Source: Sulfuricurvum sp.
GTDB taxonomy: Bacteria; Campylobacterota; Campylobacteria; Campylobacterales; Sulfurimonadaceae
Length of the DNA stretch: 64,000 nt
Assembly: GCA_024637295.1 (NCBI GenBank)
Contig: JAGXFL010000008.1
Coordinates: 1 to 64,000 of the forward strand
Direction: 5' to 3'
The notes beneath the pieces are model-generated. The model was not told the DNA's origin. It worked only from the letters and a program-made list of their open reading frames with translations, and ran no database searches. The position numbers and the translations under genes are program-made. The stretch's first letter is position 1, and every line of letters starts with the position of its first letter. Shown one piece after another: positions 12,755 through 50,198 of the stretch.

Positions 12755-12887
12755 TAAAATTTTCCTTTTTATAAGCCATAGCAGTATATAATGGCCTACT
12801 TAAAATACGGCTACTAAAAGTCGTTACGTGTGCCTATTTGGCCTATTTTCACCCAAAATTTTGATCCATAACCCGAAGGAATAACTC

Positions 12888-14516
12888 ATGACCAAGTATA
12901 TTTTTGTAACCGGTGGCGTATTGAGTTCACTTGGAAAAGGGATTACCGCTGCAAGTATCGGTGCATTACTCACCCATTCCGGTAAAAAAGTCGGAATGCT
13001 CAAAATCGATCCGTACATCAATGTCGATCCGGGAACCATGAGTCCGTTAGAGCACGGGGAAGTATTTGTCACCAAAGACGGTGCAGAGACCGATTTGGAC
13101 GTGGGGAACTATGAGCGCTTTTTGGATGCCTCTTTTTTGCGTACCAGTAACTTTACGACCGGACAAGTCTACAGCAGTGTTATCGAGCGTGAACGTGCCG
13201 GCGGATACCTCGGGCAAACAATCCAAGTCGTACCACATATCGTAGGTGAGATCGTCGATCGTATCAAAAAAGCGGGTGAGGGACACGAGATCCTTGTCGT
13301 TGAGCTAGGCGGTACCGTCGGAGACATCGAAGGATTGCCATTTATGGAAGCGATCCGTATGATGAAGCACGATGATGAAGTGGAGGGGACATTTTTTATC
13401 CACGTAACCCTGATACCGTTTATCAAAGCTGCAGGGGAGCACAAAAGCAAACCGACACAGCACTCGGTTCAAGAGCTTCGCCGTATCGGTATCACACCGC
13501 AGATGATCATTGCCCGTAGTGAAGAACCTCTTCCAAAAACGTTCAAGAAAAAATTGGCACTCAGCTGTGATGTCTCTTCGGACAGTATTATCGAAGCATT
13601 GGATGCCGCTACCATCTATGCAATCCCGCTTACGTTCTTGCACCAAAACATACTAGCCCCTATCGCCAAAGAGTTGGGATTGGGTGAACTTAAACCGGAT
13701 ATGGAAAAATGGGACTCATTGGTCAAGAAAATCGTTTCCCCAAAATACCGTGTCACTATCGGTTTTGTCGGTAAATACCTCGAGCTCAAAGAATCATACA
13801 AATCTCTCATCGAAGCACTGATCCATTCAGGTGCCCATCTCGATACACGTGTCAATATCAACTGGATTGACAGTGAAAAGATCGAAGAGCAGGGGGCGGA
13901 AGTCTTCTTGCGCGATTGCGACTCGGTGCTTGTCGCCGGTGGTTTTGGGAACCGTGGTGTCGAGGGTAAAATCCAAGCTATCCGCTATGCACGTGAAAAC
14001 CGTATCCCGTATCTTGGTATATGTTTGGGAATGCAGCTCTCGCTTGTGGAATATGCTCGTAATGTCTTAGGATACACTGATGCCAACTCCATCGAATTCA
14101 ACCCTCAGACTACCCACCCAATGATCTATCTCATCGACAACTTTATCGATCAATCGGGTCAAAAACAGCTTCGTACCCACCGCTCTCCTATGGGTGGAAC
14201 GATGCGTTTGGGTGAATACCCGTGTGAGACCAAAGAAGGGTCTCATTTGCGAGATGCCTATGACGGTTCTCAAATGATTTATGAACGTCACCGTCACCGC
14301 TATGAAGCCAACCCAACCTATCGTGATGATCTAGAGCGTGCAGGGATGATCGTCACAGGAGAATCTGACGGTCTTATCGAAGCGGTAGAGATCCCGGGAC
14401 ACCCATGGTTTTTAGGGGTACAATTTCACCCTGAATTTACCTCTCGTTTGCAAACTCCCAATGCAACCATCCTTGCATTTGTGAAGGCTACCTTTGAGCA
14501 AACCAATCCTGCTTGA
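12888..14516 (+). CDS. pyrG: CTP synthase
   Basis: A 542-residue enzyme that aminates UTP to CTP. The N-terminal synthase domain starts [17 protein letters not shown] and has the [14 protein letters not shown] ligand region. The C-terminal class I glutamine amidotransferase has the nucleophile Cys in GICLGMQL and the His-Glu pair in GVQFHPEF. Length and motifs are complete. AAGGAATAACTC precedes the ATG, and a TATAAT at 12787-12792 is a possible -10. Its last 23 bases overlap recJ. Confidence 0.98.
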
Positions 14517-38769: not shown

Positions 38770-39429
38770 ATGTTAACTCAAAAGCTGCTACTGACCATTT
38801 TGTCACTTGCCTTTATGTTTAACACACTTCATGCGGAACCTACTTGTGCCCAAAATGCCCAAGAAGGAACTATCTCTTTTTATCATGAAAACTATATCGA
38901 AGCTCAAAAATATCTCACCAAAGCCTCTCAAGCCGGTGACCCAAGTGCAAACTATTATTTAGGAATCATGTATCTCAACGGCTATGGTGTCCCCGTAAAC
39001 TACCAAGAAGCCGCACGTCTTTTCACCCTCAGTGCACAAAAAAATCATTCAGGCGGTCAGATCGCACTGGGAGTTTTGCTCATCGAAGGGATTGGAATCC
39101 CTCAAAACTTCAAACGTGCCGCAGCATTATTGACACTTTCAGCCAAACAGGACAATCAAAGTGCCCAAGCCATTCTTGGATGGATCTATAAATACGGTGT
39201 TGGTGTACCGGAAAATAGGATCGTTGCATATGCCCTGTGGAACTATGTAGCTGCAAAAGGGGATGATTGGGCACGCTACAATCGCAACTATCTTCTGTCA
39301 GAGATGACCGAAGATGATCTGTATAAAGCGCAAGACCTCTCTATGAACCTCTCAGCCCTATGGAACTATTTGGAACATAAACAGGCTCCTGTCACAAAAA
39401 ACACCTCAAAGAAAAAAAGAAAACACTAG
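38770..39429 (+). CDS. secreted Sel1-repeat protein
   Basis: A 219-residue protein. It has an N-terminal signal peptide of about 23 residues ending near LHAEPT, and at least three Sel1-like repeats (YYLGIMYLNGYGVPVNYQEA, ALGVLLIEGIGIPQNFKRA, AILGWIYKYGVGVPENRIVA). The C-terminal tail is Lys-rich. Sel1 repeats bind partner proteins; its role is unknown. The ATG at 38770 follows AAGGGATATA. An upstream in-frame ATG would bury the signal peptide. Confidence 0.85.
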   Translation: MLTQKLLLTILSLAFMFNTLHAEPTCAQNAQEGTISFYHENYIEAQKYLTKASQAGDPSANYYLGIMYLNGYGVPVNYQEAARLFTLSAQKNHSGGQIALGVLLIEGIGIPQNFKRAAALLTLSAKQDNQSAQAILGWIYKYGVGVPENRIVAYALWNYVAAKGDDWARYNRNYLLSEMTEDDLYKAQDLSMNLSALWNYLEHKQAPVTKNTSKKKRKH

Positions 39430-39435
39430 CGCCTA

Positions 39436-39954
39436 CTATCCTCGCCAACTTCTCTCTTTCCATGTGTCTACATGAACAAAATTCGAATAGATCCCTATCC
39501 CTGCACCACCGCATAACCGCATCAAACGAGCCAGGTAATCAATCGGAATCCCTTCCATGTGAATGTCCGCTGCTTTCCCATATAGATGCATTGAGTTTAC
39601 CGCAGCACCTTCCGTCATACTGTTTGTATGTTGGGTTCGATACCCGGACGTGAGAATTATAGGTCGTTGTATATGATTACTTGCTAGCCACCCTTGCGCT
39701 TTCGCCAACACAGCAAACAGATTTGGATCCATTTGAACGGCGACTTGATCATGTGTATCCGCAAAAATCTTACACAGATCATAATAACCGTTCTGTTCTA
39801 AAGTACCATTACGCATAAAAGGTATGTTATAGGTATTTCCATTGCGAATGATATGCAGCAGTGTTTCTTCGTCTTTAGCACCACCCGCATATAGGGGAAT
39901 AGTTGCCGTAAATAATAAACTATTCTTTAGAAATGTTCTTCGTTGATTGTTCAT
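39436..39954 (-). CDS. Tat-exported DUF882/YcbK-like peptidase (M15 family)
   Basis: A 172-residue protein with a twin-arginine signal (NNQRRTFLKNSLLF). A YcbK/peptidase M15-type domain follows: TSGYRTQHTN, SMHLYGKAADIHMEG and FVHVDTW supply the His-Asp-His zinc set. It is likely a periplasmic peptidoglycan-processing peptidase. Two further in-frame starts 9 and 15 bases upstream are possible. Note that its proper export by Tat would imply cofactor or folding needs. Confidence 0.85.
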   Translation of the reverse strand: MNNQRRTFLKNSLLFTATIPLYAGGAKDEETLLHIIRNGNTYNIPFMRNGTLEQNGYYDLCKIFADTHDQVAVQMDPNLFAVLAKAQGWLASNHIQRPIILTSGYRTQHTNSMTEGAAVNSMHLYGKAADIHMEGIPIDYLARLMRLCGGAGIGIYSNFVHVDTWKERSWRG

Positions 39955-40034
39955 AAAATCCATACACACTTTTTTAAATTTTGCTATTTCGTAAACAATA
40001 AAAGCAAATTATAGTCCATAATAAAAAAACAAAC

Positions 40035-40052
40035 TTGGAACATCTTTTGCTT
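40035..40052 (+). promoter_or_regulatory. sigma54 promoter of pilus/competence operon
   Basis: TTGGAAC-ATCTT-TTGCTT matches the -24/-12 layout (GG and GC ten bases apart, N5 spacer) 35 bases upstream of the first gene of the cluster. The C at -22 is replaced by A. RpoN dependence would need an enhancer-binding protein, which is not encoded in the window. Confidence 0.7.
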
Positions 40053-40087
40053 TAAGTTCGCTATCTAAACCTCTAGAAAGCAGAGTC

Positions 40088-40489
40088 ATGAACTATTTTT
40101 GGTCATTTCTTTTCATTGCAGCCTCGGTAAATGCGGCCTATAACCCGTTTTTTCATCCACTTGCAAAACCAAAAAAAGCTCCGGAAGTGGCGCCAGCATC
40201 ACACCCGATGCCGCTTCCTCCGCTTTTAAAACCGACATTTGAGCCATCATTAGCGGGACCAAAAGCCCCTTTTGATCTTTCTTCACTTGTCTATAACTGT
40301 TATTTAGAAACAGCAAAGGGCAAATTTATCTTGCTTAAAATTGGAAGTAATACGGTTGTATTAAAAGAGGGAGATCCTTTTTATGCCAATAACAGTAAGT
40401 ACTTTATTCGTAATATTACCAGTAACTTCATCACTGTCGATGATGCCGGTAGAACACAAACCATCTACTTTACCGCGGGAGGTCAATAA
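40088..40489 (+). CDS. PilP/CtsR-like periplasmic protein
   Basis: A 133-residue protein with a short signal peptide (about 17 residues), a proline-rich linker and a C-terminal small beta domain (KGKFILLKIGSNTVVLKEGDPF) that resembles the homology-region domain of PilP/GspC. Such proteins dock the inner-membrane complex to the secretin. It lies directly before the secretin with overlapping stop and start, as ctsR does before ctsD in Campylobacter. Assignment rests on size, export and position. Confidence 0.62.
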   Translation: MNYFWSFLFIAASVNAAYNPFFHPLAKPKKAPEVAPASHPMPLPPLLKPTFEPSLAGPKAPFDLSSLVYNCYLETAKGKFILLKIGSNTVVLKEGDPFYANNSKYFIRNITSNFITVDDAGRTQTIYFTAGGQ

Positions 40490-41952
40490 TGCGTTCACTG
40501 ATTCTTGCAATCGCATTACTTGGATTAACCGGATGCAGTGTCGTTACCAAAAAAGAGATGCTAAAGCCTGAAATGACCTTGAAAGAACTCGAAAACAATG
40601 CAACCCAGATCCAGCGCAGTGAACCTGCCATGCAAATCGTAGAAGTTAATGCCGATAATTTTCATATTGAGACACAAACCATACCGGACAAAGAGATCAT
40701 CAAACGTGCCAAAATAATGGGAGCCAATTTAAACGATGTCATAGCACTATTAACCGAAGCTACCAATGAGAACATTGTTTTTCAACAGCAATCTGAATCT
40801 GTTACTTCAAGTAATTCACAATTAGGGCTTACTGGACAAACAGCTTCCTCTAATGCTGTTTCAAATAATGGGCAATACTCAAACGGCAATGATTATTTAC
40901 TTACAGACACTCGTATAAATCTCTCCGCATCCAATATTGCATTTGGCAGCTTACTCCAAAAAACCATGGGTGATAAACTGGGAATTCAGTATTATGATGA
41001 CACATTCTACTTAGGGCATGTTCATACCACTACTCTCAAAATTCCATCTGTCAATGGGTTATCTACCGCTATGAGCTCAAGCCTTAGCTCCATGGGTGCT
41101 ACCAATATTGCCTTTGACTCAGTCACTTCAACCATCAGTTTTTCCGCAAAAGAAAAAGAATATGGTGATATTATGAATTATCTTCAGATTCTCCGAAATA
41201 ACTTATACGTCATCGAATATGAAATCTCTATCTATACTGTTGACTTAAAAGACAATTATGCTTTAGGAATTAACTGGAGTTTGATCCCAAAAATGGCAGA
41301 AAACGGTATCGGGTTTATCGCTTCTTCCGCAGCCTCATTAGGTGCTGCAGGAACGACTGCGGCACCGCTGACTTTTGGAATGCTCATGAAAAACGACAAA
41401 TATAGCGGTCAAGCACTTATCAATGCCTTGGAAAACTTTGGAAAAGTCGAAAGCGTTCAACGACCGAAACTGCTAGGACTTGCAGGTACGACCGTTAGTC
41501 TTACCGATGGTGTTCAAACACCCTATATCAGTGGCATCACAAGCACATCCGTTGCTAATGGTACAGCACAACTTTCAACAACCAGCGCAACAGCTCTCAG
41601 CGGTCTAAATATTAATCTTAAATCTAACATGCTTGATGGGACTGTCATCACTGATATTGGACTTACCATCAATGACGTCGTCGGGTTTACCAATTTTGAA
41701 GTAGGAGCAACCAAATTTTCACAACCTACTACTGTCACAAAGGCAATCAATAACACCATGCGCGTACAGCCAGGTGTTCCGATTGTCATATCTGGTCTTT
41801 TCCGTAATAAAACAGATAAGGGATGGAATGGCCTTCCAGGCCTAGGGGATACTCCTGCTGCCGTCATTGGCGGAGCACGAAGTACTGCCAGCACTAAAAG
41901 CGAGATGGTAATCATCGTTACCCCTCGCGTCATCAAGTATGTGATGAAATAA
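40489..41952 (+). CDS. secretin, MshL/PilQ/CtsD-like lipoprotein
   Basis: A 487-residue outer-membrane secretin with a lipoprotein signal (ALLGLTGC, lipobox). N-terminal N-domains include DKEIIKRAKIMGANLNDVIALL. A serine/asparagine-rich linker (about 100-130) precedes the C-terminal secretin domain with VQRPKLLGLAGTTVSLTDG and VPIVISGLFRNKTDKGWNGLPGLGDTP, ending in EMVIIVTPRVI. It forms the exit or entry pore for a pilus or pseudopilus. Confidence 0.92.
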   Translation: MRSLILAIALLGLTGCSVVTKKEMLKPEMTLKELENNATQIQRSEPAMQIVEVNADNFHIETQTIPDKEIIKRAKIMGANLNDVIALLTEATNENIVFQQQSESVTSSNSQLGLTGQTASSNAVSNNGQYSNGNDYLLTDTRINLSASNIAFGSLLQKTMGDKLGIQYYDDTFYLGHVHTTTLKIPSVNGLSTAMSSSLSSMGATNIAFDSVTSTISFSAKEKEYGDIMNYLQILRNNLYVIEYEISIYTVDLKDNYALGINWSLIPKMAENGIGFIASSAASLGAAGTTAAPLTFGMLMKNDKYSGQALINALENFGKVESVQRPKLLGLAGTTVSLTDGVQTPYISGITSTSVANGTAQLSTTSATALSGLNINLKSNMLDGTVITDIGLTINDVVGFTNFEVGATKFSQPTTVTKAINNTMRVQPGVPIVISGLFRNKTDKGWNGLPGLGDTPAAVIGGARSTASTKSEMVIIVTPRVIKYVMK

Positions 41953-41954
41953 TC

Positions 41955-42749
41955 ATGGCAATATTTACAGCAGGGTGCCTCAATCTTACTAGCGACATCG
42001 ATAAGATCCGCGCGCAAGTATACCGTTGCGCGCGCTCAGACCTAGACTCGACTGCCGTCAAAGTTTCATTGCGCAAACACTCCGATGGGATCAACTACAT
42101 CGCGTTCTTGCCAAAAGAGAAGCTAGTGTATGAAAACATCCTCTTGCTCGCATCCAAGAACAGCGGTAAGAGTATCATCATCTTCGAACTTGACTACAAA
42201 CAAGTGGGTGTCGTACTCGAAGATCAAAAGATCATTGATTACATTCTTGACAAGCCTGAAGAGTTTGCAAAAGAGCGTAGTTATGAAACCATTTATGCCG
42301 ATAACACCAAGGGGGACAAGCTTGTCTCTCTTAATCTTGACAAGGATAGAAAGGACACATGGACTGGAAGTTTTCTATTGGCTTGTACCGTCATTATCAC
42401 TGCTGTACTCTTTTACGCGGGTTACGATTATTTGAACTCTACGCAGCTCAATCTTACTAATCGTGACACCCTCGTAACAGAGTACAAACAGTTGGTAACC
42501 AAAAACTGTAATGTCTCTCTTGCCATGACCAAAAAAGTGGACATGGTCGGTGAATTAGAAAAAATTGAAAAGATGACGCAAGATTCTGGGTCCACCCTTC
42601 AGCAGATAAGCTATCAAAACGATAGCTTATGTGCTGAGGTGGTGACACCAAACCTCAATGCTTTTGTCGGGCTATTACCACCAGAAGCTAAAATAATGAA
42701 GGAAGATGCTGCTCAAGGCATCGTGCAGTTTTGTAATGAAAAAGTATAG
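41955..42749 (+). CDS. Walker-A-containing inner-membrane protein, CtsP/PilN-like
   Basis: A 264-residue protein. The first 130 residues are soluble and contain ASKNSGKS (residues 66-73), an exact [AG]x4GK[ST] Walker A. A single transmembrane helix lies near 136-157, and about 100 residues follow, predicted periplasmic and partly coiled-coil. This is the layout of a PilM/PilN-type fusion in outline. By position it corresponds to ctsP of the Campylobacter competence locus, a predicted nucleotide-binding protein. No Walker B was clearly found, so nucleotide binding is uncertain. Confidence 0.55.
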   Translation: MAIFTAGCLNLTSDIDKIRAQVYRCARSDLDSTAVKVSLRKHSDGINYIAFLPKEKLVYENILLLASKNSGKSIIIFELDYKQVGVVLEDQKIIDYILDKPEEFAKERSYETIYADNTKGDKLVSLNLDKDRKDTWTGSFLLACTVIITAVLFYAGYDYLNSTQLNLTNRDTLVTEYKQLVTKNCNVSLAMTKKVDMVGELEKIEKMTQDSGSTLQQISYQNDSLCAEVVTPNLNAFVGLLPPEAKIMKEDAAQGIVQFCNEKV

Positions 42750-43179
42750 TCTCGTTGCTCTATTTATTGTTATCTTGATGACAATCCTGGTATCAACGTA
42801 CTTTTATTTTCTTGACATTGTGTACGAAGATAAAACGGTAGCCGAAGAGGTGAAGACCTTTAGTGCTTTAAAAACTGCCGTGGAGCAGCCAGTTGCTGTG
42901 TACGCCAAGGATCAAATCCTTCGCGCCAAGAACGATCAATATGATGAGCTCATCCAAGAGTTGAATTTGGATGCCAAAGTATCGATTGAGAAAGAAAAAT
43001 TAATTATCCAAGGAGGCATTCATGAAACCTATTCATACTTACTACTGAAGCGGCTCTTGGATGTTGTCAAAAACGACAATGTTGAATTGGTAAGCAGCTG
43101 CATCGGGAAAGGGTGCACTGCAGATGAATATGGCTTTACCATTACGGTTCATCCGTATGTTTTAAATGTTTCACAATAA
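42736..43179 (+). CDS. PilO/CtsX-like inner-membrane protein
   Basis: A 147-residue protein. It has an N-terminal transmembrane helix (residues 5-25), a helical linker and a small C-terminal alpha/beta domain (KVSIEKEKLIIQGGIHETYSYLL) like the ferredoxin-like domain of PilO/GspM. A pair of Cys (SSCIGKGC) lies near the end. The ATG at 42736 overlaps the previous gene by 14 bases. By order it matches ctsX. Confidence 0.58.
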   Translation: MKKYSLVALFIVILMTILVSTYFYFLDIVYEDKTVAEEVKTFSALKTAVEQPVAVYAKDQILRAKNDQYDELIQELNLDAKVSIEKEKLIIQGGIHETYSYLLLKRLLDVVKNDNVELVSSCIGKGCTADEYGFTITVHPYVLNVSQ

Positions 43180-43222
43180 AAGATCAATCTTGCAACGTCA
43201 AGATAAAAACAAAGGATATACA

Positions 43223-43786
43223 ATGACACAGAATTACACTGGAATGAGAAAAGGTATCTCTCTTGTAGAGATGATGATCGCGATTATTTTATTCGCAGCG
43301 TTGGCTACTGTTGGCCTTAAATACACCAAGAACTATATCAACACAGATCTTCAAGCGATGAAAGCACGTGTTGCTGCAGCAATGGATCAAGGTTCTCAAT
43401 TGACACAAGCGTACAAATTGTACACAACACAATACGGTGCTCCAACATCGATCAATGATCTCAATGCGACTGCTACTCCGGTATTGACATCACTTCCTGC
43501 TACTATCACAGAGATGAGTGCACTTGGATGGGATCTAAACACATCTACAGGTATCGGTTCTGGATATGGTTTCCATATGACCCTTGATGGTAATACAACA
43601 ACAGTTCAAGCTGGTACATACTGTGCTCTTTGGAACCATGAGTTCAACGCATCTGTTGAGACAAATGTTAGTGGAACAGAAGACTATGGCACTATCACAG
43701 CACCACTATATGTTACGTCTACTGCACTAAGCTACTGTTATGGAACATCTACAACAGGTTACGAAGTTATCGTTAAACTCCCGTAA
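43223..43786 (+). CDS. type IV prepilin, tandem copy 1
   Basis: A 187-residue prepilin with an 11-residue leader ending MRKG, cleavage before ISLVEM (Glu at +5), and a hydrophobic N-terminal helix (MMIAIILFAALATVGL). The globular domain has two Cys (TYCALW, LSYCYG) that likely form a C-terminal disulfide loop. AAAGGAT precedes the ATG. It is nearly identical to copies 2 and 3, sharing 108 consecutive bases with copy 2. No sigma54 site precedes it, so it may be read from the operon promoter at 40035. Confidence 0.9.
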   Translation: MTQNYTGMRKGISLVEMMIAIILFAALATVGLKYTKNYINTDLQAMKARVAAAMDQGSQLTQAYKLYTTQYGAPTSINDLNATATPVLTSLPATITEMSALGWDLNTSTGIGSGYGFHMTLDGNTTTVQAGTYCALWNHEFNASVETNVSGTEDYGTITAPLYVTSTALSYCYGTSTTGYEVIVKLP

Positions 43787-43813
43787 TCTGGCTTCTAATC
43801 TTTCATGAATTCT

Positions 43814-43837
43814 TTCTTGCTCCTATTAGAGCAAGAA
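43814..43837 (+). terminator. hairpin after prepilin copy 1
   Basis: TTCTTGCTC-CTATTA-GAGCAAGAA is a perfect 9-bp stem 27 bases after the stop. No T-run follows (GATTCAACCCCC), so it may stabilise the 3' end of pilin mRNA or cause pausing rather than classical termination. Confidence 0.55.
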
Positions 43838-43889
43838 GATTCAACCCCCTTCTCACCCCTTTATTAACAATAAATCTTTTCTATAAAAA

Positions 43890-43907
43890 TTGGCACAAAA
43901 ATTGCTT
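43890..43907 (+). promoter_or_regulatory. sigma54 promoter of prepilin copy 2
   Basis: TTGGCAC-AAAAA-TTGCTT is an essentially perfect RpoN promoter (TGGCAC-N5-TTGCW), about 65 bases upstream of the copy 2 ATG. An AT-rich run precedes it. Confidence 0.85.
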
Positions 43908-43971
43908 AGACCATTTGATGATACCAAATTCCTACATTGCACGCAGTGTAGGATAGACCAAAGGACATGCA

Positions 43972-44535
43972 ATGACACCAAATTACACCGGAATGAGAAA
44001 AGGTCTCTCTTTGGCAGAGATGATGATCGCGATTATTTTATTCGCAGCGTTGGCTACTGTTGGCCTTAAATACACCAAGAACTACATCAATACGGATCTT
44101 CAGGCAATGAAAGCTCGTACTGCTGCAGCGATGGATCAAGCCTCTCAATTGACGCAAGCGTACAAATTGTACACAACACAATATGGTCCTCTTACAGCGA
44201 TCGGTGATCTTAATGCGACTGCTACTCCGGTATTGACGGCTACCCCTGACATTATCGCAGAGATGAGTTTACTTGGATGGGATTTTAACTCAAGTACGGG
44301 TGTTGGAACTGGAAAGGGCTTTCATATGACCCTTGATGGTAATACAACAACAGTTCAAGCTGGTACATACTGTGCTCTTTGGAACCATGAGTTCAACGCA
44401 TCTGTTGAGACAAATGTTAGTGGAACAGAAAACTATGGCACTATCACAGTACCTCTGTATGTTGCAGATACTGCATTAAGCTACTGTTATGGAACCTCTA
44501 CAACTAGTTATAACATTATCGTTAAACTCCCGTAA
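43972..44535 (+). CDS. type IV prepilin, tandem copy 2
   Basis: A 187-residue prepilin with leader MTPNYTGMRKG and mature start LSLAEMMIAI (Glu at +5). Compared with copies 1 and 3 it has a distinct middle (about residues 68-110, with TAIGDLN, DIIAEMSLLGWDFNSS, GVGTGKG). Its C-terminal third is identical in DNA to copy 1 over 108 bases. Two Cys are conserved. It has the strongest sigma54 promoter of the cluster and may be the major pilin. Confidence 0.9.
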   Translation: MTPNYTGMRKGLSLAEMMIAIILFAALATVGLKYTKNYINTDLQAMKARTAAAMDQASQLTQAYKLYTTQYGPLTAIGDLNATATPVLTATPDIIAEMSLLGWDFNSSTGVGTGKGFHMTLDGNTTTVQAGTYCALWNHEFNASVETNVSGTENYGTITVPLYVADTALSYCYGTSTTSYNIIVKLP

Positions 44536-44562
44536 TCTGGCTTCTAATCTTTCATGAATTCT

Positions 44563-44586
44563 TTCTTGCTCCTATTGGAGCAAGAA
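44563..44586 (+). terminator. hairpin after prepilin copy 2
   Basis: TTCTTGCTC-CTATTG-GAGCAAGAA repeats the copy 1 element. The single loop change A to G lets C and G pair, lengthening the stem to 10 bp with a TATT loop. No T-tract follows. Confidence 0.55.
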
Positions 44587-44639
44587 GATTCAACCCCCTT
44601 CTCACCCCTTCATTAACAATAAATCTTTTCTATAAAAAT

Positions 44640-44656
44640 TGGTACAAAAATTGCTT
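44640..44656 (+). promoter_or_regulatory. sigma54 promoter of prepilin copy 3
   Basis: TGGTAC-AAAAA-TTGCTT is the second copy of the RpoN site. It carries C to T at the third base after GG, a normally conserved position, so it may be weaker than the copy 2 promoter. The ATG is about 83 bases downstream. Confidence 0.75.
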
Positions 44657-44738
44657 ATAAGACTTGAATGATACCGAGGTATCTGAATCTCTACATTAGA
44701 TCAGTCCCTCACAGCATGGACAGGCCAAAGGATATACA

Positions 44739-45302
44739 ATGACACCAAATTACACCGGAATGAGAAAAGGTATCTCTCTTGTAGAGATGATGATCGCGAT
44801 TATTTTATTCGCAGCGTTGGCTACTATTGGCCTTAAATATACCAAGAACTATATCAACACAGATCTTCAAGCGATGAAAGCACGTACTGCTGCAGCGATG
44901 GATCAAGGTTCTCAATTGACACAAGCGTACAAATTGTACACTTCCCAATACGGTTCCCCAACAACAATCACCGATCTCAATGCCACTGCTACTCCAGTAT
45001 TGACCAATATCCCTGCCGCTATCACAGAGATGAGTGCACTAGGATGGGATCTAAACACATCTACAGGTATCGGTTCTGGATATGGTTTCCACATGACCCT
45101 TGATGGTAATACAACAACCATCCAAGCTGCTACTTATTGTGCTATATGGAACCATGAGTTTAATTCATCTGTTGAGTTAAATGTAAGCGGTACAGAAGAC
45201 TATGGCACTATCACAGCACCTCTGTATGTTTCATCTACTGCATTAAGCTACTGTTATGGAACATCTACAACAGGTTATGAAGTTATCATTAAACTCCCAT
45301 AA
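44739..45302 (+). CDS. type IV prepilin, tandem copy 3
   Basis: A 187-residue prepilin with leader MTPNYTGMRKG and mature start ISLVEMMIAI. Its middle (ITEMSALGWDLNTSTGIGSG) matches copy 1, but its last third (IQAATYCAIWNHEFNSSVELN) differs from both. Two Cys are kept. A 14-bp hairpin follows. It lies at the end of the homologous array. Confidence 0.9.
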   Translation: MTPNYTGMRKGISLVEMMIAIILFAALATIGLKYTKNYINTDLQAMKARTAAAMDQGSQLTQAYKLYTSQYGSPTTITDLNATATPVLTNIPAAITEMSALGWDLNTSTGIGSGYGFHMTLDGNTTTIQAATYCAIWNHEFNSSVELNVSGTEDYGTITAPLYVSSTALSYCYGTSTTGYEVIIKLP

Positions 45303-45324
45303 TCTGCCAAAATATTAACTTTTT

Positions 45325-45359
45325 ACTTATTTTCACTCATAATAAGAGTGAAAATAAGT
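45325..45359 (+). terminator. long hairpin after prepilin copy 3
   Basis: ACTTATTTTCACTC and GAGTGAAAATAAGT form a perfect 14-bp stem with a 7-base loop, 22 bases after the stop. No T-run follows on the plus strand, but the stem itself is the longest in the cluster. It probably ends or protects the pilin transcript. Confidence 0.6.
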
Positions 45360-45446
45360 CCTCCATTTATTTTCATTGTAACCATTAAAGATTTATTTAC
45401 CATTGTCGATATACACAAATACAAGTGTTATAAAAGGAGTTTTAAC

Positions 45447-46034
45447 ATGAATCACCCATACAATGGAAAAAGAAAAGGTATCTCGTTGGTTGAGATGACA
45501 ATTGCTGTTATCTTATTTGGTCTTTTATCAGCCATAGCGTTGTTCTATTACAGAAGCTTATTTAACATTGATTTGACCGCTAAAAAAGCCCGTGTTGCTG
45601 CACTGATGGATCAGGCATATCAACTTTCGGGCGCATATGATATCTTTGTAGCACAACAGGGCGTAGCCCCTAGCGTGGCTAATTTAAGTGAATTAAATGC
45701 GACCAATGTATTGATTCTTAGAAATCTACCAAGAAAAATTCAAGAGATGACAACCGTCGGATGGGAACTGAATACTTCAATGGCCAATGGACGTCCTGGA
45801 TTTCAGTTCCCAATCGATCTAAATGGAACAAGCTATACAACCTTGTCTGATGATGATCTATATTGTGCTATCTTTAATCACGAACTTAACACCAGTCTGG
45901 AACTGAACGTTACCAATAACACCGATTTTGGAACAGCCACTGCCCTTAATGCTAATGCAGCCTATGGTGATGTGTTTTGTTACTCTGAACTTATCGGTAC
46001 TGATTATAAACACTGGATTGTAATCCTCAAGTAA
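45447..46034 (+). CDS. prepilin, divergent paralogue
   Basis: A 195-residue prepilin with leader MNHPYNGKRKG then ISLVEMTIAVILF. Sequence parallels the tandem copies (KKARVAALMDQAYQLSGAYDIF, DLYCAIFNHELNTSLELN, FCYSEL) but is clearly older. Both Cys are kept. AAAGGAG precedes the ATG, which is chosen over an upstream in-frame ATG at 45348 that lies in the hairpin. Likely a minor or alternative pilin. Confidence 0.87.
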   Translation: MNHPYNGKRKGISLVEMTIAVILFGLLSAIALFYYRSLFNIDLTAKKARVAALMDQAYQLSGAYDIFVAQQGVAPSVANLSELNATNVLILRNLPRKIQEMTTVGWELNTSMANGRPGFQFPIDLNGTSYTTLSDDDLYCAIFNHELNTSLELNVTNNTDFGTATALNANAAYGDVFCYSELIGTDYKHWIVILK

Positions 46035-46035
46035 G

Positions 46036-46533
46036 ATGATCATGCAAAGAAGAGCTTTTACCCTGATCGAAGTCCTCCTTACCATTTTTTTGGTAGGGAT
46101 TATAAGTGCGCTAGGATTTTTTTACATAAGCACAACGCATTTAAAACAAGCTGAGTACAAAACAGCGCTTCAATCACAGTTGAACCTCATTGAGTCAATG
46201 GTCTTTCAATGCAAAAGCCTGTCTGAACAGATGCCAAACCAAGTGGGTGGAGCAGATGCATCCGATACCAATCTCTCTGCTTTAGAATGCAATACAAGTA
46301 CCCCCTATAACTTTGATGGTGGCCGTAATGGATTTGTACCTATCCCCCCAGCTGGTTTTTCAGCCTATACTGCAACCGAGTCTGGAACGATTTTTTACAT
46401 CATGACAACTGCCGATAACAACTCGTCACAAGATGAAGCTTTGAAAAGTTTGATACTAAACTATACCTCGGTCCAAGCTACTCTTGATCATAATACAACT
46501 TCTGCAAGCTTTAAATTTTATCTATCGCGCTAA
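46036..46533 (+). CDS. prepilin-like protein (minor pilin)
   Basis: A 165-residue protein with N-terminal MQRRAFTLIEVLLTIFLVGIISALGF: a type IV pilin helix with Glu at +5, but Ala instead of Gly at -1, which some peptidases accept. Two Cys (VFQCKS and LECNTS) suggest a disulfide. It starts one base after the previous stop; the second ATG (46042) is an equally good start. Probably a tip or initiation pilin. Confidence 0.8.
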   Translation: MIMQRRAFTLIEVLLTIFLVGIISALGFFYISTTHLKQAEYKTALQSQLNLIESMVFQCKSLSEQMPNQVGGADASDTNLSALECNTSTPYNFDGGRNGFVPIPPAGFSAYTATESGTIFYIMTTADNNSSQDEALKSLILNYTSVQATLDHNTTSASFKFYLSR

Positions 46534-46564
46534 TTTTGTGTTATAATAATAACAAAAAGCGCCT

Positions 46565-48127
46565 ATGAACATAAAGAAGATATTAACGCCAAAGCAGCTT
46601 GAAGTATGCCAAAAAGAGCAGTACTATTATCAACAGCTTGGTGTTAAAAAACATCTTCTTCAAATCGCCCTCGAGCACCATTTCGTTCAAAAAAAAGAGC
46701 CTACTGTTATCCATAATCTTGAGCTTATGAAAGAATATGAGATGGTCATCGTTGAAGAAAGCGAAACCGTTCTCAAGATTGAGCGCAAAGAACTTTTAGG
46801 TGAGAAACGTCTTGCTGAACTTTCCACAAAAGCACGGAAAAACGTTGAGCAAAAAAATATTCCTGTCCGCGAATTTCAGCAAAAATACACAGCACATCTG
46901 CGCGTTGATCCCGAAGCAATCGAGCGAAAGATCAAACAATTCAATGCCATGGATTGTGAAGAAGATGAAGTCATCGATATCTTTGAAATGTTATTGGAGT
47001 ATGGTATTCAGCGCCATTCAAGTGATATTCATATCAATGCGTACGAATCCTTTTACTGGCTTCGCTATCGTATTGACGGGCATATCCACGCAAAATTCTT
47101 ACTCAATCATGAGCTGGCACAACGTTTTGCCCTTATTATCAAGGAGCGTTGTAATATTGATATGATCAATGTCTATGCACCTCAAGGAGGAAGTTTTTCA
47201 AGAGAATATCAAGACCGATCTATCGATTTTCGTATCGAAATAGCCCCTTCTCAATATGGTGAAAATATCGTCATGCGTATCTTGGACAAATCAAAAAACA
47301 TTAAAACATTAACTGCTCTTTTCCCAAAACAACACCCCATGAGTGAACATGTTCACCATTTCGTCAATCAATCCAGTGGCTTTTTCCTAGTCGTAGGCCC
47401 TACTGGTAGCGGAAAGACAACTACCCTCAATGCTATTTTGAATCAACGGGACCGTCTTCATGAAATCATCTATACGATTGAAGACCCTATCGAGTATAAG
47501 ATAGACTTTGTAACACAATACCAGATTAATGAAGCCAGCGGGTTCACCTTTATAGAAGGTATGAAATCAATCATGCGCCAAGACCCGGACGTTATAGTCA
47601 TCGGTGAAATGCGTGATAAAGAATCGATTTTAACGGGTCTAAAAGCCGCTCACAGTGGGCATATGGTATTCTCAACCCTTCACACCCCAAACAGTTTTAT
47701 GGCGATGGAGAGAATTCGTGATGAGGGGGGGGACTTATTTATTCTTGCGTATTCACTCAGTGGGGTTATTGCCCAGCGTCTTGTTCCAAAACTTTGCAGT
47801 TGCAAACAGCCTTCCTTTGTAGAAGAAGGTAAAAAGTTTTTTGACAGTACAACTACCGGATATGAAAAAACCGGATGTATCCAATGTAATTTTACAGGAT
47901 ACAATGGACGAGCACTGTTACTGGATATGGTCTTTATCCCGGGAGACATGAAAGTACGTTACCAATTTTACCTTGCACTCAAAAACAGTACTGTATTTAA
48001 AGCGTGGGAGCATTTTATCACATTTAGCTATTTCCAATCGGCACAATATCTTTTCAACAATGGCATTTGTGACCACTCCACGCTCTCTAGTGAATTATTA
48101 TCACTGGGATACGTACATGAGACCTGA
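46565..48127 (+). CDS. GspE/PilB-family assembly ATPase (CtsE-like)
   Basis: A 520-residue secretion ATPase. It has an N-terminal helical domain (1-150), then a core with DEVIDIFEMLLEYGIQRHSSDIHI, Walker A GPTGSGKTT near 277, the Asp box EDPIEYKID, Walker B RQDPDVIVIGEMRD and His box HSGHMVFSTLH. A zinc-type Cys set (LCSCK, CIQC) lies near 415-440. It drives pilus or pseudopilus polymerisation. No retraction ATPase (PilT) is in the cluster. An extended -10 TGTTATAAT at 46539-46547 could give an internal promoter, but no clear ribosome site is seen. Confidence 0.92.
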   Translation: MNIKKILTPKQLEVCQKEQYYYQQLGVKKHLLQIALEHHFVQKKEPTVIHNLELMKEYEMVIVEESETVLKIERKELLGEKRLAELSTKARKNVEQKNIPVREFQQKYTAHLRVDPEAIERKIKQFNAMDCEEDEVIDIFEMLLEYGIQRHSSDIHINAYESFYWLRYRIDGHIHAKFLLNHELAQRFALIIKERCNIDMINVYAPQGGSFSREYQDRSIDFRIEIAPSQYGENIVMRILDKSKNIKTLTALFPKQHPMSEHVHHFVNQSSGFFLVVGPTGSGKTTTLNAILNQRDRLHEIIYTIEDPIEYKIDFVTQYQINEASGFTFIEGMKSIMRQDPDVIVIGEMRDKESILTGLKAAHSGHMVFSTLHTPNSFMAMERIRDEGGDLFILAYSLSGVIAQRLVPKLCSCKQPSFVEEGKKFFDSTTTGYEKTGCIQCNFTGYNGRALLLDMVFIPGDMKVRYQFYLALKNSTVFKAWEHFITFSYFQSAQYLFNNGICDHSTLSSELLSLGYVHET

Positions 48128-49157
48128 TTTACTCACCCTTCTTAAAACACTGCAACTATCACTCGAAAATGGGAAAAGTCTGACAAATTCACTGATGCTA
48201 TTGCAAGGAATAAGCAAAGAAAAATCTGAACAACGTGCTTATGCACAAATTATTAAAGCAATTCAAGAAGGGGCCTCTTTCTCATCATCCGTTGAAAAAT
48301 ACATATCACCTTCTCCCGACATCATTCAATTTATCTCAATGGCTGAGAAGGGTGGATCATTTGTCAAGACACTAAAATCCGTTGTCAACTATTTGGAAAT
48401 CAAAAATACATTCTATCAAGAATCAAATGACAAAATTGCCCTTCCTTTAATCTATTTTACCCTGACTACTGTCATAGTAATTGGAATTCGTTTTTTCGCC
48501 ATCCCATTTCATCTCAAAGAAGCATCGACATATGACCCTAAAATCCAAGCTGTTATTGCAGAACATCTACATATGGCACAAATTTTAAGTGATGTATTAT
48601 TTGGCTCATTGCTCTTGCTTTCTATATACTTTTTTATTGCTATGATCGCACTATTTAATTACACAGGTATCTTACAAGGACTGGCAAAAAAATATGCTTC
48701 TATCCTTCCATTGTCCTCAGGCATCATAAGTTATTTTGAAAAATTCATGCTTTTAAGTTTACTCAGCGAAATGTTAAAAAATGGTGTTTCGCTCAAAACA
48801 TCCTTTAAAGCAGCTGCCACGAGTACCCTTGTCACTTCTATCTCTAAACAATTTACTATCGTACTTGATCGCCTAAGCAAAGGTGAAAAGCATTTTTGGG
48901 AAATTTCATTTTTTGAAGAAATAGAACAACGTCTTCTCTCGGGAGCTGGAAACATTACACAACTTGGAGATATGTTGGGACAATTTGCACAACGATCACG
49001 ACTAAATGCTCTTGCGGCAGCAACACGATTTTTTCGCATCATCACGGTTATGTCCATTTTACTCTTAGCATTTGCTGTCTTTGTTGAATTTTTCACCATC
49101 GTCCTCACACAAGTACTAATCCAGCAAGAGTTTATTAATGCCGCTGGTCATGCATAA
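48117..49157 (+). CDS. GspF/PilC-family platform protein (CtsF-like)
   Basis: A 346-residue inner-membrane platform protein with three transmembrane helices, at about residues 105-125, 155-180 and 305-335, the usual GspF topology. The first F-domain has SLENGKSLTNSLMLLQG and FISMAEKGGSFVKTL. The second has LLSEMLKNGVSLKTSFKAA. The ATG at 48117 overlaps gspE by 11 bases; an earlier in-frame ATG lies far inside gspE. Confidence 0.88.
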   Translation: MRPDLLTLLKTLQLSLENGKSLTNSLMLLQGISKEKSEQRAYAQIIKAIQEGASFSSSVEKYISPSPDIIQFISMAEKGGSFVKTLKSVVNYLEIKNTFYQESNDKIALPLIYFTLTTVIVIGIRFFAIPFHLKEASTYDPKIQAVIAEHLHMAQILSDVLFGSLLLLSIYFFIAMIALFNYTGILQGLAKKYASILPLSSGIISYFEKFMLLSLLSEMLKNGVSLKTSFKAAATSTLVTSISKQFTIVLDRLSKGEKHFWEISFFEEIEQRLLSGAGNITQLGDMLGQFAQRSRLNALAAATRFFRIITVMSILLLAFAVFVEFFTIVLTQVLIQQEFINAAGHA

Positions 49158-49167
49158 GGATAATACA

Positions 49168-49821
49168 ATGAAAAAAGGTTTTATGCTAGTAGAAGTGATG
49201 ATCGCGATTGTCATGGCAGGTATAATTGCAACCGTACTAGCAACTATGGGCTACTATACCATGATTCAAGCAAACAGCCTCAAACTTCAAAATACAAAAA
49301 CCATACTTGAAGTGATTCGCAGCCGTTTGGTCGGTCTAGCAACGGATCCCGACGCAGATTCTTATTTCGAGCTTCTCAAACAAGATGTAAACTCGACCGT
49401 CCCTGTCTCTGTGGGACTTGGTAAAGATGCATGGGGACGTAATATCTATTATACGACCTACGACTTTGGTATTGCAAATGTGATAGATCCAATCTATGCG
49501 GATACCAACACCTCTATCTCACCCAATGACAATGTGTTGGGTCGCCTGATCAGCACTGGTGAGGATGGTATTTTGGATACGAACGCTACGAGTTCTACCG
49601 CGCAAGGTGATGATCTGATGATAGAGATCGGGATCGGAGAGACCAATCATCTCAAGCTGTATGGCGGGTCTGAGATCACAACGCAGACTCGTGGCTATAA
49701 CAGTGCAATTGTCTCATCCACTGCACCGCTTACCCCAACACATGGAACTTTATGGTATTGCGATACCAATGCAACGCTTTACATGTACAATGCTACAGAT
49801 CTCAATTGGACTGCGATTTAA
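49168..49821 (+). CDS. prepilin-like protein, last gene of cluster
   Basis: A 217-residue protein. MKKG, then FMLVEVMIAI (Glu at +5), is a canonical prepilin N-terminus. The globular part contains GKDAWGRNIYYTTYD, like the GspG/GspH-type beta segment with a DPWGNPY-type motif, and is rich in Thr/Asn near the C-terminus. It is probably a pseudopilin of the minor set. Starts 10 bases after gspF ends. Confidence 0.82.
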   Translation: MKKGFMLVEVMIAIVMAGIIATVLATMGYYTMIQANSLKLQNTKTILEVIRSRLVGLATDPDADSYFELLKQDVNSTVPVSVGLGKDAWGRNIYYTTYDFGIANVIDPIYADTNTSISPNDNVLGRLISTGEDGILDTNATSSTAQGDDLMIEIGIGETNHLKLYGGSEITTQTRGYNSAIVSSTAPLTPTHGTLWYCDTNATLYMYNATDLNWTAI

Positions 49822-49823
49822 CT

Positions 49824-50198
49824 TTAGGATTCCCCAAATTCACGTTCTTCATAGCCTATGGTTGCGCCCATAATATACAACGGTGCATCTTCTATACGCC
49901 CTTTATAATCCCCTATTGCCAATGCCGCCTTGGCATTATCCAACTCAACCGTTATCCCCTCATCCATCGACAGTACACGTAAAACATTGTCACTGACCAA
50001 TTTAGCATCGCTAACACCCTCAATCACAAAAGCAACATCGATCCAGTCAAATCCTCGGGCTTTGTCTTGGACACTAAAACGTATTTCAATGGAAGTAGCG
50101 GAAAGAGGGATCAGAGAGTGTATTTCGCCGTTACGAGCGAAATCTATACGCTCACATAGGGATTTAAGCGTTAAGGCGTTCAGGGGCTTTACTGGCAC
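49824..50198 (-). CDS. conserved-looking unknown protein coupled to nrdA
   Basis: A 124-residue soluble protein with alternating helix and strand (IDWVAFVIEG-like middle) and no recognisable motif, metal site or signal. The GTG start overlaps the end of nrdA by 10 bases, so translation is probably coupled. It could be a RNR accessory or just a linked gene; I do not recognise the family. The convergent pilin gene ends 3 bases from its stop. Confidence 0.55.
   Translation of the reverse strand: MPVKPLNALTLKSLCERIDFARNGEIHSLIPLSATSIEIRFSVQDKARGFDWIDVAFVIEGVSDAKLVSDNVLRVLSMDEGITVELDNAKAALAIGDYKGRIEDAPLYIMGATIGYEEREFGES

Follow-up and report, generated by a model that had tools for sequence, protein, structure and literature searches.

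The pilus operon and its prepilin genes

The window, that is the whole stretch of 64,000 nucleotides that was analysed, belongs to the genome of a sulfur-oxidising Sulfuricurvum, 2.17 Mb in 13 contigs (the source genome), and carries a type IV pilus operon on the forward strand (positions 40088-49821). Its genes code, in this order, for a small protein, a secretin and two inner-membrane proteins (assembly genes, 40088-43179), four prepilins, and then a minor prepilin, the assembly ATPase, a PilC/GspF-like protein and a second minor prepilin (46036-49821), all on the forward strand. The assignment to type IV pili is based on prepilins with an N-terminal cleavage motif, the secretin, a T2SSE ATPase and a T2SSF protein. 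The secretin (40489-41952, forward strand) matched MshL best, with 98.6 bits against a cut-off of 250 for the MshL equivalog; the system is thus related to MSHA, without reaching the threshold for membership. The spacers behind prepilins 1, 2 and 3 comprise 185, 203 and 144 bases, respectively; the remaining genes of the operon lie at most 43 bases apart and frequently overlap.

Prepilin copies 1 (43223-43786), 2 (43972-44535) and 3 (44739-45302) are located on the forward strand, encode 187 amino acids each and share 82-91% identity at the protein level. The fourth prepilin (45447-46034, forward strand, 195 amino acids) is an older paralog which is present once per genome. All copies are complete open reading frames with start codons. 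In the protein tree the final prepilin of each genome clustered across species, and copies 1-3 clustered within the source genome, as did the two copies of another species (G002). The nucleotide differences among copies 1-3 are arranged in blocks (62 adjacent sites with the same pattern vs. 36 expected, a value reached in none of 20000 shuffles), and the majority of them is found in the C-terminal two thirds. Because the copies are mosaic and group by species, copies 1-3 appear to have been recently duplicated or gene-converted; gene conversion or staggered duplication would produce such blocks, and the homogenisation could alternatively result from very recent separate duplications. Copy number varies among species. 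In one genome (G033, contigs 7 and 10; L044 and L043) the assembly is broken within the pilin array, probably due to the tandem copies. A predicted model of the pilin (pLDDT 81) yielded no match to a solved structure at E ≤ 0.001, the best one being PilA1 of C. difficile (E 0.14), and a sequence profile search recovered, apart from weak chance matches, just the pilin helix at the N-terminus.

Predicted sigma54 promoters and hairpins

A sigma54 core (TTGGAACATCTTTTGCTTTA, 40035-40054, forward strand) precedes the first gene and represents the predicted main promoter of the operon. Among 228 genomes of the family that were searched, the secretin was found in 30, the upstream region was present in 29 of these, and in all 29 a sigma54 core was located at a distance of 441-602 bases upstream of the secretin; this promoter is also present in one further lineage (L063). 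Because the core occurs in 29 of 29 orthologous upstream regions, RpoN control appears to belong to the whole pilus operon and to be ancestral. On the opposite strand a further conserved element (ATGGACTATAATTTGCTT, window positions 40019-40002, reverse strand) faces a divergently oriented M15 peptidase gene (39969-39436, reverse strand). Its TGGACT-N5-TTGCTT is kept in most Sulfuricurvum loci; candidate roles are those of a sigma70 -10 box or of another sigma54 promoter, oriented divergently.

Two internal cores are located in the spacers ahead of copies 2 and 3, TTGGCACAAAAATTGCTTAG at 43890-43909 (expected transcription start at about 43917) and TTGGTACAAAAATTGCTTAT at 44639-44658 (expected start at about 44666), both on the forward strand. 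Both are exact matches to the sigma54 consensus, with the GG of the -24 element and the GC of the -12 element spaced 12 bases apart in the context TGGCAC-N5-TTGCW. When the spacers were shuffled with preservation of dinucleotides, the observed score, determined with a -24/-12 weight matrix built from the consensus and not trained, was reached in 0 and 1 of 2000 shuffles, respectively; the two matches are not independent, one being a copy of the other. Genome-wide, the strict pattern TTGGNNCN5TTGCTT occurred eight times vs. once in the reversed control; three of the eight sites lie within the pilus operon, and sites elsewhere precede flgH and a flagellin gene. The loose pattern TGGYACN5TTGCW, with five matches vs. 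three in the control, is alone not significant genome-wide; looser-pattern sites elsewhere in the genome precede fliD and pseB. Copy 1 has no sigma54 core of its own, its start lying 43 bases past the upstream gene.

Internal cores were surveyed in those species which have at least two upstream-type copies on one contig. In a sister species (G032), TTGGTACAAAGATTGCTTAC occupies the place orthologous to TTGGTACAAAAATTGCTTAT; 19 of the 20 core bases are kept between the two genomes vs. 58% of the flanks (binomial P 3e-4), which argues for the internal core being in use. The source genome carries a core in both of its two spacers and G032 in its single one; two further species (G030 and G001) carry none. 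In G002 a degenerate TTGGACTGCTTTTTGCT is located at the corresponding place, but is doubtful, since 21 of 2000 shuffles were equally good. The spacer before the last prepilin contained a sigma54 core in none of the species examined. By this survey the internal promoters appear to be a narrow addition to the operon, and an internal site does not seem to be required for a tandem array, because G030 and G001 have two tandem copies without it. A chance origin of the internal cores was rejected on the basis of the spacer shuffles and the conservation.

Hairpins follow copy 1 (TTTCTTGCTCCTATTAGAGCAAGAAG, 43813-43838, z -3.7) and copy 2 (44562-44587, z -4.0), both on the forward strand and without a T-run; a hairpin of different sequence follows copy 3 (45322-45359, forward strand, z -5.7), with no sigma54 core behind it. 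Within the genus a hairpin was found behind 14 of 15 upstream-type prepilin copies, mostly without a sigma54 promoter following, and the stem sequence varies between species with the structure being kept. Being present with or without a sigma54 core behind it, the hairpin is a 3' feature of the pilin gene, separate from the promoter. Two candidate functions were rejected. As intrinsic terminators the hairpins lack the T-run, and those of copies 1-3 were not among the terminator-like sites; as nif enhancers they would require TGT-N10-ACA, which is absent upstream of all three promoters. A search for known structured RNAs gave no Rfam match within 39000-50000.

These results modify a preceding sequence-only reading of the locus. 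Its description of nearly identical copies 2 and 3, each preceded by a hairpin and a -24/-12 core, was reproduced in coordinates, sequence and exact agreement with the consensus, and its view that the promoter was duplicated with the gene is borne out by copies 1 and 2, in which the 3' end of the gene, the hairpin and the promoter form a single nearly identical block. From the proposed repeat module of gene, hairpin and RpoN promoter, the tandem array and the RpoN-type promoters stand; the hairpin as part of the promoter module does not, as it follows 14 of 15 copies, mostly with no such promoter behind it. The suggestion that a C-to-T change sets graded promoter strength is weak, since orthologous operon promoters freely have C, T or A at this base and the internal promoter of G032 has T as well. 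That the duplicated promoters let pilin dose and variant be set separately is conjectural; one activator probably governs all three promoters. The alignment of the locus in relatives, which had been proposed as a check, recovered the operon promoter throughout but internal cores only in the source genome and G032, that of G002 being doubtful. Not included in that reading were the operon promoter at 40035, the fourth prepilin and the promoter-less state of copy 1.

Candidate activator

The genome contains two rpoN genes, a housekeeping-type one which adjoins lptB and another one in the nif cluster. Two sigma54 activators are encoded as well: one, located in the nif region, has the layout GAF-AAA-HTH, and the other is an FlgR-like receiver-AAA protein without HTH; FlgR was identified via its domain layout alone. 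The second rpoN gene and the GAF-AAA-HTH activator lie together in the nif cluster (L079, 6201-7466, forward strand, and 12848-14482, reverse strand), and the two mostly co-occur in the family. The genomes G149 and G105, both nearly complete and carrying the operon promoter, have a single activator each, which is FlgR-sized. In G190 (L087; operon, sigma54 promoter and one rpoN gene present; 94% completeness) no activator match was obtained at E 1e-30.

Because the operon-bearing genomes G149 and G105 hold only one activator, of the size of FlgR, the best guess for the activator of the pilus operon is, by elimination, the flagellar activator FlgR; G190 does not fit this. FlgR of H. pylori acts without enhancer DNA (PMC9696931). 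All three sigma54 promoters are probably under one activator.

Interpretation and known systems

The explanation preferred here, to which a probability of roughly two thirds is assigned, is that of an RpoN-driven pilus operon in which the major pilin was amplified in tandem, the spacer having in this lineage gained or kept a sigma54 promoter that was copied along. RNA polymerase with sigma54 would start at 40035 and transcribe the assembly genes together with copy 1, fresh sigma54 starts would follow ahead of copies 2 and 3, and as the outcome of the internal starts pilin mRNA would exceed the mRNA of the assembly proteins. The hairpins at the 3' ends of the pilin genes may shield or trim the pilin messages, not terminate them. 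FlgR as the activator, being devoid of a DNA-binding domain, would need no enhancer site in the spacers and would couple the amount of pilin made to the RpoN programme of the flagellum. If the copies are held similar via gene conversion or repeated duplication, the promoter would move with the cassette. A more far-reaching version, in which the promoter-carrying pilin cassette spreads in tandem under homogenisation by gene conversion and the FlgR-controlled operon sets dose and mixes variants in step with flagellar assembly, is offered tentatively, as one possibility among several.

A silent-passenger reading, in which the internal cores are chance matches or relics copied along with the gene, the pilins are expressed from 40035 only and hairpin processing alone sets the dose, is considered unlikely. 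G030 and G001, which lack an internal core in spite of their tandem copies and hairpins, indicate that read-through can suffice, and the site of G002 may be a decayed core; against this stand the conservation of the core relative to its flanks between two species and the exact matches in both spacers of the source genome, hardly ever equalled by shuffling. Still less credit, to the point of being highly improbable, is given to hairpin and core as one regulatory element with the palindrome as enhancer for a DNA-binding activator. The centre of the palindrome does lie at about -90 relative to the expected start, a usual location of enhancers at sigma54 promoters. The sequence of the palindrome, however, changes across species with the structure staying, it is present also where no core follows, nothing related is found in the region of the operon promoter, and the likely activator lacks an HTH.

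The copies might also serve as a reservoir of variation, in which exchange of segments alters the pilus surface, as in other repeated filament genes, and separate promoters express the variants. This reading, possible if somewhat doubtful, can be combined with the RpoN-driven amplification preferred above. The mosaic blocks among the copies, the differing copy numbers of the species and the concentration of differences towards the C-terminus agree with it; however, the copies are full-length and intact, with start sites and spacers, and not silent cassettes, and all three promoters appear co-regulated. The array also differs from the pilE/pilS system, in which silent copies are promoterless and 5'-truncated: all prepilin copies are complete and copies 2 and 3 have predicted promoters.

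The arrangement had been regarded in the sequence-only reading as not known as described, which overlooked flagellin pairs of the flaA/flaB type and the flagellin pair of the source genome itself. In C. jejuni sigma54 regulates flaB, and it has been proposed that flaA and flaB recombine with each other (PMC5126078); the likeness consists in tandem, near-identical genes for filament subunits with a sigma54 promoter before the downstream copy. In the source genome (G000, contig 4, 71275-76243; L110, 5276-10244, forward strand) a flagellin gene is followed by a hairpin, a sigma54 promoter and a near-identical flagellin gene, i.e. hairpin and promoter share the spacer before the second copy as in the pilin array. 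The two flagellins have about 805 amino acids each, which is long for flagellins. Differences are that the first gene of C. jejuni, flaA, is under sigma28 and outside a machinery operon, whereas the subunit here is a prepilin encoded inside a sigma54 operon, where two internal sigma54 promoters follow one another and an older paralog makes up the fourth prepilin gene. By analogy, the pilus array looks like an extra-dose design of the flaA/flaB type, as used by this phylum for its flagellum, set within an operon and with more than one copy of the promoter.

RpoN-dependent transcription of pilin genes is established for pilAB of Azoarcus BH72 (PMC3262810) and pilE of commensal Neisseria (PMC6528607), to which the operon is alike in its predicted RpoN-type pilin control. 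Both have a single promoter before the pilin gene(s) and an activator of the PilR/Npa type, whereas the present array has a promoter in each spacer between the near-identical copies, and the one general activator that the genome yielded is without HTH. In the open-access subset of the literature that was searched, no account was found of tandem pilin genes with a sigma54 promoter recurring in the spacers, nor a paper linking the flagellar sigma54 programme to a type IV pilus operon.

In this family of Campylobacterota the sigma54 programme would not be confined to flagella, but would also take in a type IV pilus operon through a single conserved promoter. The species also form a natural series for measuring the duplication of a promoter together with a filament gene, from one copy, via two copies without or with an internal promoter, to three copies with two.
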